DNA of 64,000 nucleotides from NCBI GenBank assembly GCA_018884035.1, contig JAHLFE010000044.1:1-64000 (forward strand), in the 5' to 3' direction. The position numbers and the translations under genes are program-made. The notes beneath the pieces are model-generated. The model worked only from the letters and a program-made list of their open reading frames with translations. It was not told the DNA's origin and searched no databases. Shown here in pieces: positions 2,401-57,114 of the stretch; position 1 is the first letter of the stretch; each line of letters opens with the position of its first letter. The stretch is from Candidatus Anaerobiospirillum pullicola (GTDB taxonomy: Bacteria > Pseudomonadota > Gammaproteobacteria > Enterobacterales > Succinivibrionaceae).

Positions 2401-2504
2401 GGCAGGGTGTGGTGGTGGCTTAGACACCAAACGCTGAGCAGAGCTTATTTATCCCTGCCTCAGCTGACTCTGACAAAAATCAAGTTTGCACTCTGCTTTT
2501 GTGG

Positions 2505-29679: not shown

Positions 29680-32600
29680 CTACGACACCAAGATGTAAGG
29701 TGGCGTCAAGAGCTCGGTGATAAGGCGCGATAACACCTCTGGCAGTTGCTGTGGGTGCTCTAGCTCCTCGAAGTAACTAAACAGCTGCCTGTTATCAGGG
29801 CAGTTAATGCCGAGGGTATAGACCTCAACCTGCTGTTGCTGGCAAGCCTCTAAAGCTTTACGTGTTTGCTTGATGTCATCAGGGGCACCGTCGGTGATCA
29901 GCAAGATGATGTTGCGCGCGCAGTTAAGAGTGAGCGCACAGTGCAGGGCAAACCACAACGCCTGCGCTGTTGGGGTTTCACCATGAGGTGGGTAGTAGAA
30001 GCGTGAAGCCACTTGTGACGCCCGCTCGGTAGGGTTGAGCACGTTTAAGCAGGACAGGTTGTCGTTACCTGGAAAAAAAGTCGCCATGGTCTGTACCTGT
30101 GGTAGGCCCTCAAGAGCCATAGCCATGGCTAAGGCCGCTTGGCTGGCTTGATAGGCCCGCGAGTGCGCAGGCAGAGGCTCAAAGCTGTTAAGCGGGATAA
30201 CGTCCGCGGCAAGTAGGGCGGCGCGCTCTTGTTGCGACATGAGCACCGTGCCTTGGGAGTACGGCTTGCGACTAGGGGTAGAGTGTTGGTGTTGATATTG
30301 GTGGCGGTAGTCATCAAGGCTTTGTACGACCTCGGCGCTGTTTAAGAGCTGAGGCTTATTGCCCCACGAGACGGGGCGATAGCCGTGTGGGCCCTTGATG
30401 TAGTTCTTTTGCACCATCTCATTGAGCTCATAGAGCTCCTTTTGCCAAGACACTTGGTTGAGGGAGCTCATATAGAGCGGGTGGTCAGTAAACTCAGATT
30501 CGCTGTGGGGCTCATTGGCGACGTTGCTGCCATTGAATCTGCTGCCATTAAGGCTGTTGCGTGCAAGGCTGCTGCGTCCCACACTCCCAGTGCCAGTGCC
30601 AGTGCCAGTGCCAGTGCTGGCGGCAGAGCCGACGGTGGCTAAGGGGTTAAAGATGCCTGCCCCCATTCCCTTGTGATTGACGTCAGTGCGCATCGAAGCG
30701 GACATATCAAGCAGCAGGTGTAAGGAGGTGCTGTCGCTACTTTGCATCACCACTGGGGCCATGACATGGCGCTCACCTAAAGGCGAGAGTACCACGCGCG
30801 CGGGAATCACATGCTTGCTCTGTGGAGTGCTATCTTGCTCTAAGCGCTGGCGTAAGCTCTGACGCACAGCCGTAGTCTGCTGCTCTACTGCAAAGACAAA
30901 GGCGTCATGGGGCTCGTCATAAATGTCCCCACTCTCACGCGGGGAGATCAGCATGGGCTTGCTGCAATCCTCAGCATGGTGGAGCGCCATCTTCGTCACG
31001 ACGTCAGCAATGGTTGGCAGCGCAAAGCGTGGCTGCGGGCGCTCTGACAGTGAGTTGTAGCTGCTGCTGGCAGTTCCACCTAAGATGGGCAAGCCCCTAC
31101 CGTCAACATCCAGCAGGTTGACGGGAGTCGACTGATCGAGAGCACGTGTGGCGGCGGAGAAGGATGGCAGTGGCTTTTGGTTGTGCCAGAAGGCCTGTAA
31201 GGCATCACTGAAGGTACACTCAAGGCGTGGGTCACGAGTGTTGGTTTCAAGCAGCGCGTACTGTCTGCGCTTGATGTGGTACTCGTTTAAGATGTCCGTA
31301 AAGCGTGGCTGCTCACGCACGGTTTCATCCTCCGCCTCCGTGCTCTCCCAAGCTGGTTTGTGCGCTTGCAGCTTGAGCATGCGCTCACGCTCCTGAGCCA
31401 ACTTGCCTAAGACCTCTTGCAAGGCGTGTAGTTGCGCAGGGGTAAAGTCCAGCGTGGTGGCAATGGCGCCTACCATTTGGCTCATGCGCGCATAGTCCAC
31501 GTCCCATGGCTTGTAAGTGGGCTCTGGTGGCTCTGCGGGCACGCTAGGCGTAAACAGGAGGTTAGAGTCCGCAGCGTCAGAGTCAGCCGCAGTGCGGCAC
31601 TGCGACGGTGGCAGCGTTAGTCCCTGCTCTTGCTCTAAGGTCAGCAGCTTGGCGCACAGCGACATGACAAAGTAGTCTTTGGCGAAGACTTCGCCTTGCG
31701 CACTACGGCAGTAGAAGTGTGGGTCTAACAGCGGCAGAGCGCTGATAAAGAAGCGTGGCAGCAGCCCTTGCTCTTGCAAGATGCTCTCAGTGCGGACAAA
31801 GGATAGGCGCTGGCGCCACATCTCACGTATGCGACGCTGCTCGCGGAGAATGCTAGTAGTAGGTGGCAGCGGCGCGGTGACGAGGTCGCGATCTAAATGG
31901 AGGATGGTCAGCTCCTCAGGCTCATGCGCTAGCTGGTAGATGGGGAAGTACAAGCCGTTGTCCAGCTCTTTTTTGCTGTAGCGCAGCTGCGCAATATCAA
32001 TGCGCAAAATGAAGCGGGCCAGCTCAGGGGTAAAGTCCTGACCGAGGCGGCGCTTGATGTAGTCCTTGATGTTGGCAAGGTGCGCCTGCTCGTCTGGGCT
32101 GAAAAAGGCAGCACCGTTCTGCGCTCTGACATGGCAGTAGAGGACAAAGCGGGCATACTGTTGGATTTGGCTTAAGCCATCGATGTGGGAGAGGAGCTCC
32201 ATGAGCAGCTGTTGCAGGCTGTGCTGCGTAAGATTGGCCGACAGCTCAAGGGATGTAGGCAGACGCAGTGGTGGCAGGCAGCGGTATTCGTTAAGGGTCG
32301 CAATTTGCGCTTGTTGCGACATCTGGTCTTTGCGGGCGGCCATTTGCAGTGGTGCAGGCAGCTTGTCAACTTCCAGTTGCTGCAGTTGTGGCTGCAGATG
32401 GATAGGGTTGATGAGACGCTCACGGCGGATACGGGTGACCAGCTCCGCAGGGCTGGAGGTGCTCACCAATAACGGCTTGGTGCTTGGCCCTAGGTCAAAG
32501 GCGTGTAGGGCGTGGCCAGTGGCGGCAGCCGTATGCGGCAGGGAGAACTCTGAGGACAGGGGCGCCATGCTTCCCTTGCTGACAGTTACCCCAGAGGTAG

Positions 32601-33741
32601 CGGTTCTTGGTGCCACAGAGCTGGTAATACCGTTAACATTGCTGGAAGCGCTATCAACACTGCTGGCGGCAGCGTCACCACTACTGGTAGCAGAAATTGG
32701 CGTGACCACTGGCGCCGCGTCTGTTGCTGCCTCAGCAGCAGCAGTAGTAGTAGTAGTATTAGTAGTAGTAGTAGTAGTAGTAGTTGGAGGGGAGGCCATA
32801 GCCTTGACGCTAAGCTTGGTGGGCATGCCTTGCGTGGAGCTTAAGGACAGAGCTGGGCACAATGCTGGGCTGGCGGCTGGTGGCACGTGCACCTGTGGGG
32901 TGAGCGTGTAGTAGTCATGCTGCAATTGCGGCAGGGAGAAGGGGCTGTGCAGGGCAGTGACGATGTCCTCGGCGGCCACGACTGGCACGGAAGCCTGAGG
33001 CTGTGGCGGCTCTAAGCTAAAGTCCTGCTTGTAGATAGCCGCCAGTTGCTTGCAGTGCTCGTAGTCGAAGCGGCTTTGGGTGTTGTGGTGCTTTGCAAAG
33101 GCGGTAAAGTTAGGCACAAAGAAGTCTGCCCCCATTAAGGAGCGGATCTCATGCGCTAAGTCCACGGTGTCTTGCGTGTTCTGGCACTTGCTGATCTGAC
33201 CCAGCTTATCTTGCAGCTTAGGCAGCGCCATAGGGTTGATTAAAGCTGCGACCTCATAGCCAAAGATGGTGGCCATATGGGCGCTTAATGGGTACTCGAG
33301 GAGCTGTTGCTGCGTGCAAAAGAGCATGTAGCTTAAGATGATTTGCAGCTTGCTGAAGCGGTAGCAGGTGTCAGCCTCGCCTAAGTGATCCTCGTAGAGG
33401 TACTGGTTTAAGGCGCTGAGGTTATCGTAGGCGCCAGGGTAGTTGTCTACGATTTTGCGCTCGACGCGGCTGTCCTCGAGGGCGTTGACGAGGAAGCGGT
33501 CGAACTCGCTTGGGAGTTTGTTTAAGAGGTCGAAGTCGCTGTAGTGGATGTGACCGGCCTCATGAGCGATGTAACCGGAGATAACGCGGGCCTTTTGGGG
33601 CGTGGTGAGCGCCACCTCAGGGATGACGATGGTGTCGCGGGTTGAGTAGGCTTGTTGGCCGTGGATTTCAATGTCCACCTTAAAGCGGTGGGCGTAGTTA
33701 CGGGCGACGAGTGGCAGGTATTGTTGCCATGAAGCAGGCAT
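29680..33741 (-). CDS. Giant CobT-like protein with N-terminal HExxH and C-terminal VWA domain
   Basis: N-terminus SGYIAHEAGHIHYSDFDLLNKLPSEFDRFLVNALEDSRVERKI; C-terminus LHLLLDMSASMRTD..NIILLITDGAPDDI (MIDAS-like); low-complexity linkers. Confidence 0.75.
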   Translation of the reverse strand: MPASWQQYLPLVARNYAHRFKVDIEIHGQQAYSTRDTIVIPEVALTTPQKARVISGYIAHEAGHIHYSDFDLLNKLPSEFDRFLVNALEDSRVERKIVDNYPGAYDNLSALNQYLYEDHLGEADTCYRFSKLQIILSYMLFCTQQQLLEYPLSAHMATIFGYEVAALINPMALPKLQDKLGQISKCQNTQDTVDLAHEIRSLMGADFFVPNFTAFAKHHNTQSRFDYEHCKQLAAIYKQDFSLEPPQPQASVPVVAAEDIVTALHSPFSLPQLQHDYYTLTPQVHVPPAASPALCPALSLSSTQGMPTKLSVKAMASPPTTTTTTTTNTTTTTAAAEAATDAAPVVTPISATSSGDAAASSVDSASSNVNGITSSVAPRTATSGVTVSKGSMAPLSSEFSLPHTAAATGHALHAFDLGPSTKPLLVSTSSPAELVTRIRRERLINPIHLQPQLQQLEVDKLPAPLQMAARKDQMSQQAQIATLNEYRCLPPLRLPTSLELSANLTQHSLQQLLMELLSHIDGLSQIQQYARFVLYCHVRAQNGAAFFSPDEQAHLANIKDYIKRRLGQDFTPELARFILRIDIAQLRYSKKELDNGLYFPIYQLAHEPEELTILHLDRDLVTAPLPPTTSILREQRRIREMWRQRLSFVRTESILQEQGLLPRFFISALPLLDPHFYCRSAQGEVFAKDYFVMSLCAKLLTLEQEQGLTLPPSQCRTAADSDAADSNLLFTPSVPAEPPEPTYKPWDVDYARMSQMVGAIATTLDFTPAQLHALQEVLGKLAQERERMLKLQAHKPAWESTEAEDETVREQPRFTDILNEYHIKRRQYALLETNTRDPRLECTFSDALQAFWHNQKPLPSFSAATRALDQSTPVNLLDVDGRGLPILGGTASSSYNSLSERPQPRFALPTIADVVTKMALHHAEDCSKPMLISPRESGDIYDEPHDAFVFAVEQQTTAVRQSLRQRLEQDSTPQSKHVIPARVVLSPLGERHVMAPVVMQSSDSTSLHLLLDMSASMRTDVNHKGMGAGIFNPLATVGSAASTGTGTGTGTGSVGRSSLARNSLNGSRFNGSNVANEPHSESEFTDHPLYMSSLNQVSWQKELYELNEMVQKNYIKGPHGYRPVSWGNKPQLLNSAEVVQSLDDYRHQYQHQHSTPSRKPYSQGTVLMSQQERAALLAADVIPLNSFEPLPAHSRAYQASQAALAMAMALEGLPQVQTMATFFPGNDNLSCLNVLNPTERASQVASRFYYPPHGETPTAQALWFALHCALTLNCARNIILLITDGAPDDIKQTRKALEACQQQQVEVYTLGINCPDNRQLFSYFEELEHPQQLPEVLSRLITELLTPPYILVS
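30589..30618 (-). repeat. (AGTGCC)n hexamer repeat in the VWA protein gene
   Basis: agtgccagtgccagtgccagtgccagtgct, encoding (TG)n. Confidence 0.9.
32733..32784 (-). repeat. (CAG)/(TAG) triplet microsatellite in the VWA protein gene
   Basis: cagcagcagcagtagtagtagtagtattagtagtagtagtagtagtagtag, encoding TTTTTTNTTTTTAAAEAA. Confidence 0.95.
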
Positions 33742-33886: not shown

Positions 33887-34168
33887 TTAGTAAGTAAAGT
33901 TGCGGCGTGCTTGCAGCTCGTTCTTTACTGAGGACTGGATCAGACGGTGCGAGCCAGAGCGCTGTAAGTCGCCGTAAGCAGGGCTTAAGCGGCTGGTCGC
34001 AGAGCGTGATGAGTGGTGGTTGCTCGCTTGGGCGGGATTGGCCTGCGTTAAAGACATGAGCGTAAGCGTCAGCAGGAGCAGTAGCAGCGGTGTGCGGGCA
34101 AGGTCGCATGCTGTGGTGGTAGCCACGCTGCTGAGTGCAGCTTGGCGCTGGTTGTTGTTAGTGGTCAT
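33887..34168 (-). CDS. Small putative secreted protein
   Basis: ATG 34168 with upstream AAGGAG; N-terminus ends LLLLLLTLTLMSLTQANPAQA|S, signal-peptide-like. Confidence 0.5.
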   Translation of the reverse strand: MTTNNNQRQAALSSVATTTACDLARTPLLLLLLTLTLMSLTQANPAQASNHHSSRSATSRLSPAYGDLQRSGSHRLIQSSVKNELQARRNFTY

Positions 34169-34200
34169 TGGTGTGATCTCCTTTTGATGGATGGGGCGTT

Positions 34201-34570
34201 GTTTGGGCACGGCCTCTTGTCATGTAGGGGGCTTAGGGAGCGTTGCGGGGGTGAAAGTCGTAAATGAGAGGTACTACCCGCAGCTAGTGCGTATGCGCCC
34301 GCATTTACTGTTTTTGAGTTTCTCACCTCGTCAATGGCGAAAAGGGCCTCAGGAGTGACGTAGCGTTTTTTGTAATGTTGCTAAGCTGAAATTTCCCTTA
34401 TTTATCAGCTTTAATAAGGTAGCTGGCAAAAATATTCGTATCTTTGTTTATAAGACATAAACGATGATGTGCACTACATAGGGGCGCTTGATTTGGCGGC
34501 GTGGTGGTGATTAATGGCTTATTTATCGCGTTTATCATGCTTTTTAGCTCTCATAGACGGTTGATAAATG
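34201..34570. repeat. Duplicated non-coding module, copy A
   Basis: Shares gtttgggcac, cagctagtgcgtatg, tgtttttgagtttctcacc, aagctgaaatttcccttatttatcagcttta, aaaatattcgtat and aatggcttatttatcgcgttt with copy B in the same order. Confidence 0.85.
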
Positions 34571-34932
34571 GCATGTATATTGCTAAACAGGCCGACTTTT
34601 TTTCATGTACGGAGGTGGCTTAGTTCCTGAGAAAGGGCGTATTTACGGTGTTTCTTTGGGGGAGTGATCTCTCCTATATGTAGGTAGTGGTATGCCCTAT
34701 GGTTAGGGCTGGTCAGAGGTGCAGTGGCTTACTGGTGGCTGTAGTGGTCGTTGAATCTGTAGTCGTTGCTCTCCTTTATGAGATGGCGGTATGCCCTGCG
34801 GTTAGGGCTGGTCAGAGGCGCTACCTCGAGGTCATGACTTTGGTCATGGCTAAGCAGCCTCACTCTTGGTGCAGGCCAAAGCCTCACTAGAGGTAGCAGC
34901 GGCGCAATGTTGAAAGCTGCGTTTTGGGCGCA

Positions 34933-35413
34933 GTTTGGGCACTGCATCTTGTCAAGTCAGGGCTAAAGGTGCTTTTGGGGGCTAAAAGTAGTAAATGAGC
35001 GGCACCACCCACAGCTAGTGCGTATGTGCTCTCGCGTCCTGTTTTTGAGTTTCTCACCCTGTCAACGGCAAAAAGGCCTGCTGGAGTGACGTAGCTGTTT
35101 TTGCAGTTGTGGTAATGCGCCCTAAAAAGCTGAAAATTTCCCTTATTTATCAGCTTTATTGAGCACTTGTAAGACAAGTAGTAAAAATATTCGTATATTG
35201 TTGTAAATAAGAATAAAGACGTCAAAAACGAAAATTTGCACTGTTTTGGTAAGAAAATGCTTTAAATTGGTGCAAAAATCCCAGCGGGAATGGGAAAAGA
35301 GGCATGAGGAGTTTTCACCGCCGAGGTGAGCACAGTTGAGCTCTGTTGTGGTCAGTAATGGCTTATTTATCGCGTTTTATAGGGGGTTTAGCTCTAATAG
35401 ATGGTTAGTGCTT
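34933..35413. repeat. Duplicated non-coding module, copy B
   Basis: Collinear with 34201-34570, with about 100 bp of extra sequence around 35215-35330. Confidence 0.85.
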
Positions 35414-36217
35414 GGTACAATTCTTGGCAAAGCTGTCAGATGGCCAGCGTCGAGCGGGTGTTGTGGGCTGCGGAAAAGGGCTCTCCTTGTGGTGCAGACA
35501 GCGGAAATGACTGCCGGAATAGCGTGCTATTATCTGTAGCACGTGAAACATAGAATGCTCACAAAGGGCTGAGATAAGAGCTTTTGTGAGGGAGGAGTGC
35601 AGTAATAGAGGTGCGCCTCTCCTTTTCCTGCACTGTTAGCTGCACGTGGCTGCTTGCCCTGTGGTGTGGTCTAAGCCAATTGCAGCTGTGCGTTGAGGCT
35701 TAGGGATAGGGACAAGCGAGGTGAGCACAAAGAGGAGCGCGGCAGGCACTGGAGCTGGCGTAAGGTAGTGGCTATCCCGCCTCGGGTTGTGGTTGCCATA
35801 AGTAGGCTTAGAGCTGTAAGTAAGAACGGCTACTGGCACTTACAGCGCAGCGCCTCTGACCATCTGGGAACAAAGAGGGTGTCAGACCGGTCTTACCCAT
35901 GTCGTCAGGCAGTAGCGGCACGCTGCCTCCAAGGGGGCTCTGAGACATCTGTGATAAAATTTCTGGCACAATTGCGCAGATGCAGCTTGTATGCGGCCTC
36001 TTTGCAGCCACAGCTCTGCTCTGCAACGCCACCTGTTATCGCTCCTTAAGAGCCGGTAGTGACAGCAAGCTTGTGTACAAGCACCAGTGCTCTGCCTGTC
36101 GCTAATTTGCAGCACTTAGGCGGGCGGATAAGGTAGTGTTCTAACCCCTAGCGACGTGCAGATCCTTTTCTTTGGTCGTCACCTTTCCTTGGCGGAAGGC
36201 TTGTGAGGCAGGCTCCC

Positions 36218-38452
36218 ATGAGCGAGAACTTCAATCCCCTGAAGCGTTTCTCTTACAAAGAGCAAGTGTCGCGTGCCATCACTTGGGGCCACTACTTTAT
36301 CTTTATCAATATCCTGCTCGCCTGCTTGCTCGGCTTTAGCTACGTCTACGCCGCCCCTCCTACCACCAGTTTCTTAAGCTTCTTTTACCTCATCGTCTCG
36401 TGGCTCGGCCATATGAGCTTTTTGACGGTGGTGGTCTACCTCGTTATCTTCTTCCCGCTCGCCTTTATCGGTAACTTTAGGTATTACCGCGTCCTGTGCG
36501 TGTGCATAGCCGTTATCATGCACACCATCTTGCTCTTTGACATCAAAATCTACCTCCTCGTCAAAGTGCACCTCAGTATGACCGCCATCAACCTCATTGT
36601 GCGGGAACTGGACTTCGATACCGGCCTTAATTACAACTTCCTTTTTATTGCCGTCCCGATCTTAATCGCCCTTGAATGCGTCTTTGCCAAAATCACCACG
36701 CACTCGCTTTATCGGGCCCACCATCCTTACTTTGTGCGCACGGTGCTGATCATTGTCTGCTCCTGCTTTGTGACCTCCCATGTGCTGCACATTTGGGCTG
36801 ATGCCACTAAGTACGAGCGTATCACCCTCTTACGCTCGACCTTTCCTGCGCACTATCCAATGACGGCGCGCTCGTTTTTAAGTAGTCATGGTTGGCTTAA
36901 CGAAAAGCAGCTCATGGCTAGCGATGGCTTGGGTGCGGAGTACATCAATTACCCTCTTACCAACTTAGAGATCGACCCGCATTTTGTAAATGAGCGTCCG
37001 GCCAATGTGCTCCTTATTACGCTCAATGGCCTCTCCTATAGCAACTTAAGCAAGGAGACCACGCCGCAGCTTTTAGCGTTTAAGGAGCAGGTGCAGAGCT
37101 TTGATTCGCACTACCTCTTATATAAGGAGGAGCTCAATAACGTCTTTGCTATGACGTATGGCCTGCCACTGCAGTATCGTCAGGGCTTATTTGCAGGGCA
37201 AATGGTGCCAGTGACGCTGGAGGAGATGTTTAAGCAGGACTATGTCAGCCGCGTCATTGTCAGTGCTTTAAAGCGCACGCCGCAATCGGTGCAGCCATCG
37301 CTGCAGGGCATGAGCGTCAGTGATGTGGCTATGCAGGCAGCGGCCTATCAGACGGATACAGCGGTAGCGTCAGCTGTAGACGATGCTAAGGATACTAAGA
37401 CGGATACTAATACGGCCAATGGTACAGCGCCAGAGGCCGTAACGACCTCGACTAATGAGAGCAGCGCAGATGCTGCGGATGCTGCCTTTGCAAGTGAGAG
37501 CAGCTCTCCAGCCTTAGGAGCAAAGGATACTACTGCTACTGTTACTGCTACCATGACCACGGCCTCTACGCCTAAGGAGCAGGCGGTGGTTAATGCCGCC
37601 TGGCTGGAAGCGCAAACGCAGTTTGATCACGCCGATCAGGAAACACTGCGCCGCTACTTTAGCCTGCTGGTGCAAAACTCCGGTCTGCGCAGCATGCAAT
37701 TTGGCCATGTGCACAATGTCCATGAGGTTTTTGCTCAAGCGCTACAACAAATCCGCGAGTACCGCTTACGGGAGCAACGTCCTTACGCCCTCTCGCTGGT
37801 GATTAATGATTTGCGCGACTTTGATAGCAGTGTGCAAGCTCTGCTGCAATCGCCACAGGGACAAAAGCTGCAAGCGGCTATGGATGAGGATTTAACCAGT
37901 ACGGTTAACCCTCTGATGCAGTCACTGCTCTACTATGAGCTCTCTTTAGAGGATGTTGATCAGGCCTTTGGTAAGTTCATGACGCAGTTACGCTCCCAAG
38001 GCTTGTTAGACCATACGCTGGTTATCGTCACCGCCGCCGAGGGCAATAAGCTCTTAGCCCGTGAGCCCCAGATCTTTGATCGTGAGGTGCAGCATGTGCC
38101 TTTAATGGTGCTCTGGCCACAGGAGGTGCACCAAAAGCCAATGGTGGGCTCAGAAGTGCACAACTTAAGCTCACCACAGGATTTGAGCGCCACGATTGCG
38201 CGTGAGATCCTGCACGTCACAACCAGTGTGGGCAACTTTAGTTTAGGCGCCTCCTTAAAGGAGTTACCAGACCGTCCTTATGTGGCTGTAGATGGCGTCG
38301 ATGAGCTGATTCTGGTAGGCACAGAGAACAACATTATCTACTCTATGGATGGCTCGTCCTACATTGAGAATAATGGGGAGCGCTTACCGGTGCGACCTAA
38401 TCTCGAGAACCTCATTGAGGCCACGCGCGACTTAAACCGCTTCCTGCGCTAA
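36218..38452 (+). CDS. lapC: YejM/LapC-like (DUF3413 + sulfatase-like) inner-membrane protein
   Basis: RFSYKEQVSRAITWGHYFIFINILLA; SHVLHIWADATKYERITLLRSTFPAHYPMTARSFL matches the E. coli YejM pattern. Start set at ATG 36218. Confidence 0.85.
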   Translation: MSENFNPLKRFSYKEQVSRAITWGHYFIFINILLACLLGFSYVYAAPPTTSFLSFFYLIVSWLGHMSFLTVVVYLVIFFPLAFIGNFRYYRVLCVCIAVIMHTILLFDIKIYLLVKVHLSMTAINLIVRELDFDTGLNYNFLFIAVPILIALECVFAKITTHSLYRAHHPYFVRTVLIIVCSCFVTSHVLHIWADATKYERITLLRSTFPAHYPMTARSFLSSHGWLNEKQLMASDGLGAEYINYPLTNLEIDPHFVNERPANVLLITLNGLSYSNLSKETTPQLLAFKEQVQSFDSHYLLYKEELNNVFAMTYGLPLQYRQGLFAGQMVPVTLEEMFKQDYVSRVIVSALKRTPQSVQPSLQGMSVSDVAMQAAAYQTDTAVASAVDDAKDTKTDTNTANGTAPEAVTTSTNESSADAADAAFASESSSPALGAKDTTATVTATMTTASTPKEQAVVNAAWLEAQTQFDHADQETLRRYFSLLVQNSGLRSMQFGHVHNVHEVFAQALQQIREYRLREQRPYALSLVINDLRDFDSSVQALLQSPQGQKLQAAMDEDLTSTVNPLMQSLLYYELSLEDVDQAFGKFMTQLRSQGLLDHTLVIVTAAEGNKLLAREPQIFDREVQHVPLMVLWPQEVHQKPMVGSEVHNLSSPQDLSATIAREILHVTTSVGNFSLGASLKELPDRPYVAVDGVDELILVGTENNIIYSMDGSSYIENNGERLPVRPNLENLIEATRDLNRFLR

Positions 38453-56543: not shown

Positions 56544-57114
56544 GGGGGCCGCCCTCACAAAAGAAAAGTCTGGGGAGAATTTTACCGCATTCTGGTTCTA
56601 CTCAGAGTTTGGTGGCGACTACAACGTAGCCACACAACAAAAGGCTCAACAAAAGGAGTGATAGAGCTGGGCGCACATGTTAATACTCTCGCTGGAGCAT
56701 AGTGTGTGTAAGAGTAGTAACAGCTGCTGCTCCTAAGATTCCTAACTCCGCACATTATTGGGCAGAGGCGCTTAGTGCGATGGTAGCACTGTGTTAGTAC
56801 TCACCTTGTGATTGCAGCCTATAAATAGGCTGTTTTCGCCAGCAACAGCATCGAGCTATGCTCTAGTTGAGGTCACTCTGGAGTGGCCTTTTACTGGCAC
56901 AGAGTGCAGCTCCATGCTCTTTGCCTGGTTTGCCGATAAATAAGCGCTTTTTGCTGGTACCATAGAGTATGTTACGGTATACAACTAATAGGGTAGTGAT
57001 AGATAGTCGCAACAGACAACTATCTTCATGCGTATATAGCTTATATAAGCCGTTTATCGCGGACTTGTATGACAACTACCCTGCTTTTTTCTGTCTTGGT
57101 AATGGCCTTTTTGC

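Follow-up and report, generated by a model that had tools for sequence, protein, structure and literature searches.

The locus and its duplicated module

The window analysed here is a 64-kb stretch of DNA, contig C149 of the metagenome-assembled genome G000 (3.87 Mb, 228 contigs, 81% complete). The genome is represented by one draft assembly; open reading frames (ORFs) were identified by simple calling, and motif searches were carried out with an exact core. The locus is a 2.5-kb divergent gap, with a small ORF and a VWA-domain gene on the minus strand at one side and a YejM-like gene on the plus strand at the other. Its features are as follows.

29680-33741 (-): gene for a VWA-domain protein (PF00092), downstream of the small ORF
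33887-34168 (-): small ORF of 93 aa (MTTNNNQRQAALSS...RRNFTY), adjoining the module; candidate target gene
34194-34583 (-): module copy A, given the strand of its boxes and of the adjacent small ORF; defined by repeat families, local alignment and a G007 orthologue
34397-34406 (-): box 2 of copy A, where the four copies of two species agree throughout TAAAGCTGATAAATAAGGGAAATTT
34518-34527 (-): box 1 of copy A; core GATAAATAAG, identical in G007
34569-34584 (+): perfect sigma-54-type promoter TGGCATGTATATTGCT, ~41 nt past copy A's box 1
34682-34821 (no strand): linker separating A from B; a 41-nt repeat occurs twice in it, 99 nt apart, and more often in G007
34926-35415 (-): module copy B, defined by local alignment and a G007 orthologue
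35142-35151 (-): box 2 of copy B, from the four-copy alignment and core count
35362-35371 (-): box 1 of copy B, from the four-copy alignment and core count
36203-38452 (+): YejM-like membrane sulfatase gene (DUF3413 and Sulfatase), divergent, bounding the gap at its far end

An earlier note on this DNA had described two collinear copies of a non-coding module, and both the repeat families and the local alignment place them at roughly the positions claimed, 34194-34570 and 34926-35406. The alignment of A with B scores 361, against a maximum of 79.5 in 100 shuffles, and the two copies share the repeat families D1 (156 nt, 78%), D2 (62 nt, 81%), D3, D5 and D6. The shared sequence AAAATATTCGTAT and the end block AATGGCTTATTTATCGCGTTT are found in the copies, and the extra ~100 bp reported for copy B is indeed there, as ~90-100 nt situated between its boxes 1 and 2. 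The surrounding ~2 kb had also been called AT-rich; only the module cores bear this out (GC ~0.40 at 34250-34700 and 35000-35450), whereas the linker and 35.5-36.2 kb have a GC content of 0.50-0.57. The linker repeat has a 14-nt inverted match at 35849-35862. Similarity between the linker and the small ORF is weak (6-7 of 200 shuffles score equally well), and traces of a second small ORF there are doubtful.

The whole arrangement is present in a second species, represented by genome G007, in which A and B each have their own orthologue in the same order. A and B have diverged from one another far more than either has from its G007 orthologue, and because both copies are orthologous in G007, the duplication came before the two species separated. 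The overall conservation of the copies (0.86-0.90) is only slightly above that of fourfold sites in neighbouring genes (0.78-0.86). The module is absent from all other genomes among 59 relatives, and no exact box was found between the VWA and YejM-like genes in those other genus members where this gap was read (in G009 it is split over two contigs). In G001 (locus G001:C131:800-8200) the counterpart gap is ~4 kb long, and within it lies a disrupted piece of the YejM-like gene's 5' end (G001:C131:6304-6429). Since the module is kept in another species, the absence of conservation outside this strain that would have counted against the earlier note does not hold. A search for further copies, which the earlier note had suggested, found it at a single locus in G000, and the plasmid and phage collections gave no match; with no terminal repeats and with both copies orthologous in G007, the module does not look like the remnant of a mobile element.

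The region from 34.2 to 36.2 kb holds no convincing coding sequence, as had been proposed. The ORF at 34887-35225 (-) is open in G007, yet it carries no coding signal: only 6 of its 35 changed codons are synonymous, and differences at the three codon positions number 13/16/13. Nor did the plus strand yield an ORF that is both conserved and patterned like coding sequence. A hidden coding frame, YVTPEALFAIDEVRNSKT, looks protein-like in both copies and was rejected; its convincing relatives occur at this locus only, its changes are mostly non-synonymous, and it has a stop in G007 copy A. The small ORF beside the module, which would encode an exported protein, has a hydrophobic signal-like stretch and an upstream AAGGAG Shine-Dalgarno sequence. 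It is clearly found only here and in G007, where it is 82% identical, has no indels and carries an identical C-terminal RLIQSSVKNELQARRNFTY. With 12 synonymous and 17 non-synonymous codon changes and position differences of 12/6/16, the comparison gives it a modest coding signature.

A conserved box in the module and across the genus

Each copy contains two boxes on the same (minus) strand, of ~20 bp and approximately AAARCYGATAAATAAGCCATTT. The core GATAAATAAG occurs six times in the window against an expectation of 0.04; besides those in the module, exact cores lie at 2444-2453 (-) and at 56935-56944 (+), the latter where an exonuclease (RNase_T) gene and an RNase H gene diverge. The longest invariant runs of the four-copy alignment read, on the minus strand, TAAAGCTGATAAATAAGGGAAATTT (25 nt) and CGATAAATAAGCCATTA (17 nt). 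The four boxes, whose cores are exact owing to the way they were searched for, differ between the species at 1 position over ~96 nt, while their surroundings are 70-90% identical; given 82% identity, the chance of so few differences is ~1e-7. The hairpin that had been noticed here overlaps this footprint. Its two arms are present, but they make a weak case for a structure: the left arm is part of the invariant box TAAAGCTGATAAATAAGGGAAATTT, and the right arm is variable. We rejected a conserved RNA hairpin, as the stem does not survive in G007 copy A and no dyad or hairpin complementarity was found within sites over 121 boxes.

The box is not peculiar to this locus. YGATAAATAAG is enriched in 10 of 10 genomes of the genus, with 117 occurrences in G000, 83 in G007 and 6-43 in each of the other eight, and the reversed pattern occurs 0-7 times (once in G000). 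The 14-mer CYGATAAATAAGSC is found 2-35 times per genus genome versus 0-2 times in 47 other Succinivibrionaceae, in which the box motif stands at chance level. Aligning 156 distinct box contexts gives AAARCYGATAAATAAGCCAWTT, with scant signal beyond ~25 bp. Exact matches to a 19-mer in viral contigs are scattered (10, one each), and a literature search on the box core returned nothing relevant among the matches listed.

Placement was assessed on 121 sites left after removal of near-identical contexts. Of these, 102 (84%) lie outside ORFs of at least 150 aa, which cover 50% of the stretches. Where both neighbours are known, only 2 sites lie between convergent genes, against 21 between divergent ones. 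The genes that the boxes face are co-oriented and anti-oriented with the box in a ratio of 55:54. Together with the intergenic, upstream placement, this balance makes a terminator, an RNA leader or a core promoter unlikely as what the box is in general, and it favours a protein-binding site on DNA. Neighbouring boxes are on the same strand in 35 cases and on opposite strands in 11, arrays included, and the distance from box to start codon is large, often 150-450 nt, a point against a regulatory role. Sites so spread over the genome upstream of genes, rather than gathered in one place, do not suit the recombination or replication site that had been among the candidates.

The functions of the facing genes are broad. 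They encode flagellins, the FlgE hook protein, an FlgJ-like glucosaminidase, DnaK, a chaperonin, S-adenosylmethionine synthetase, alanyl-tRNA synthetase, triosephosphate isomerase, a sigma factor, transporters and others, and flagellar genes recur in several species. A box lies upstream of FlgJ-like and AlaS genes in both G002 and G008 and of NadB-like genes in G001 and G002, and the flanks in these pairs are no more alike than expected by chance; it also lies upstream of FlgE-like genes in two species, with flanks only partly diverged. Three targets common to G008 and G002 would have a probability of ~6e-5 under random placement, with gene numbers assumed. Enrichment, placement and conservation upstream of orthologues (four gene pairs) are the properties to be expected of a genome-wide cis-regulatory site, and the boxes are probably the landing site of a putative regulator.

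Predicted sigma-54 promoters, a possible non-coding RNA and known DNA-binding proteins

The promoter in copy A is the only perfect sigma-54 match in the 64-kb window. With GG-N10-GC and TGGCAYRN4TTGCW as the pattern, copy A has a predicted sigma-54 promoter in both species, that of G007 reading TGGCATATGTTTTGCT at the same place. Copy B has a degenerate version (TTGGTACAATTCTTGGC) of wrong spacing; the site is degenerate in the B copies of both species. Seven perfect sigma-54 matches lie no more than 600 nt from one of the 121 boxes, every one on the opposite strand and the same side, i.e. in one of four strand/side classes. Five of the seven are 30-52 nt from the box, at FlgJ-like and FlgE-like genes (two species each) and in the module of G007; the window's own copy A shows this arrangement too. 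An estimated ~0.1 near-box matches would be expected by chance. With orthologues counted once, the close-range loci are three and independent, and proximity was tested after two flagellar cases had been noticed; the evidence for this geometry is therefore good but not final. Most boxes have no sigma-54 promoter nearby, and the link covers a minority of them.

The copy A promoter faces non-coding DNA, which bears on the earlier idea of duplicated sRNA genes. If the module consisted of duplicated non-coding RNAs, the promoter (34569-34584, plus strand) would drive a non-coding transcript, starting some 12 nt downstream and dependent on RpoN and an activator, for which the conserved, perfect promoter match and the lack of coding signal in the longest module ORF and of coding pattern in any conserved plus-strand ORF would be suitable; the Salmonella sRNAs glmY and glmZ are likewise listed with sigma-54 sites (PMC3844500). 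However, the module has no match in Rfam, its hairpin is lost from G007 copy A, neither B copy has more than a degenerate promoter, the length of the linker varies, and box flanks genome-wide are without within-site complementarity. We consider this explanation unlikely; what stands of the sRNA proposal is the conserved sigma-54-type promoter into non-coding DNA.

Known sigma-54 promoters preceded by a site for IHF or an activator resemble the arrangement seen here, sharing TGGCAYRN4TTGCW and an element tens of bases upstream; examples are Vibrio fluvialis tssD2 (PMC5963220) and the Salmonella sigma-54 regulon (PMC3844500). Here, the upstream element is the genus-specific box instead of an IHF site, and the module promoter faces non-coding DNA. 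The boxes could nonetheless be sites of an IHF/HU-type architectural protein of altered specificity that bends DNA at sigma-54 or other promoters, a reading that would accommodate the fixed geometry, the broad distribution of the box and its occurrence near one end of a repeat resembling a miniature inverted-repeat transposable element (MITE), described below. Architectural proteins are known to bind there in other elements. Yet none of the 121 boxes matches the IHF consensus WATCAANNNNTTR and 1 matches its relaxed form, and the motif is limited to one genus, whereas IHF is conserved far more widely. We judge it improbable that the boxes belong to a protein of this type.

Other known sites were tried and rejected. 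The H-NS core CGATAAATT is absent, the boxes do not qualify as the nucleation site TCGATAAATT, and the H-NS family (PF00816) was not found in G000 or G007. An FlhDC box is at odds with FlhC being encoded in 0 of 10 genus genomes. As a sigma-28 -10 element (GCCGATAA), the box shows no -35 signal in the alignment, 0 of 121 sites match, and its orientation is free. In behaviour, the box is comparable to sites of global regulators and nucleoid-associated proteins of the CRP, IHF, Fis and H-NS type, which are also short, orientation-free, sometimes clustered and placed upstream of many unrelated genes; its sequence differs from the H-NS-type and IHF sites tested.

Repeats that carry the box and a proposed regulatory role

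Approximately half of the YGATAAATAAG sites in G000 are inside a MITE-like, non-coding repeat of ~223 bp with imperfect terminal repeats (CTGACRTCG) and the box near one end. It has at least 45 matching stretches in G000 (for example L198:1452-1680, and in L151, L154, L171, L187 and others) and at least 40 in G007; one end is found in G001 and none in the other seven genus genomes. A reading of ~54 sites as the 3' terminus of a gene present in many copies was rejected: the frames upstream of them are short and vary, and the sites belong to this repeat. A longer relative (CTGACGTCGGGGAGTTGG...) occurs at contig ends and may be an insertion sequence. That the boxes are remnants of the repeat and the module a decayed insertion is very improbable despite the repeat's share of the G000 sites, and is largely refuted by seven box-containing species that lack it and whose boxes cannot derive from it, by box enrichment in 10 of 10 genomes, by flanks of other boxes unlike the repeat and by the module's want of terminal repeats. 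The repeat is comparable to MITEs that carry regulatory sites, and in the two sister species it carries the same box; the module is not such an element.

A second non-coding array consists of ~1-kb tandem units with two boxes each, at L134:7600-12100 (G000:C1) and L252 (G007:C68). Paired boxes in duplicated non-coding DNA are thus not unique to the module. The array has no Rfam match. Its units contain a long inverted repeat, CGCCGTTTTGG...CCAAAACGGCG, with a compensating change in one unit (CGTCGTTTTGG...CTAAAACGACG).

The candidates offered earlier for the module (sRNA genes, a recombination or replication site, a mobile element) left out an upstream control region, and it is this reading that we favour, with some reserve: the module would be a cis-regulatory region duplicated in tandem long ago, its boxes bound by a putative genus-specific DNA-binding protein. 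A broadly acting, sequence-specific protein, either a global regulator or an architectural one, would occupy the boxes and modulate nearby promoters. At this locus, with four boxes bound, the module may control the small ORF and VWA genes, a sigma-54 transcript, or both; in copy A one box is ~41 nt upstream of the conserved, predicted sigma-54 promoter, a geometry like that at two flagellar genes.

More tentatively, one Succinivibrionaceae genus may run a global network on a previously undescribed ~20-bp box and a putative protein that binds it, its targets being flagellar sigma-54 promoters and housekeeping genes; in two species, a box-carrying MITE and large duplicated stretches of non-coding DNA like the present module would have spread the box. 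The box offers a concrete regulatory motif and candidate targets for an abundant, little-studied family of gut and rumen bacteria, and it allows an odd non-coding duplication to be read as part of a box network, not as a stray repeat. If the MITE truly spreads the site of a regulator in the sister species, it would provide a clear example, in bacteria, of rewiring driven by a transposon.
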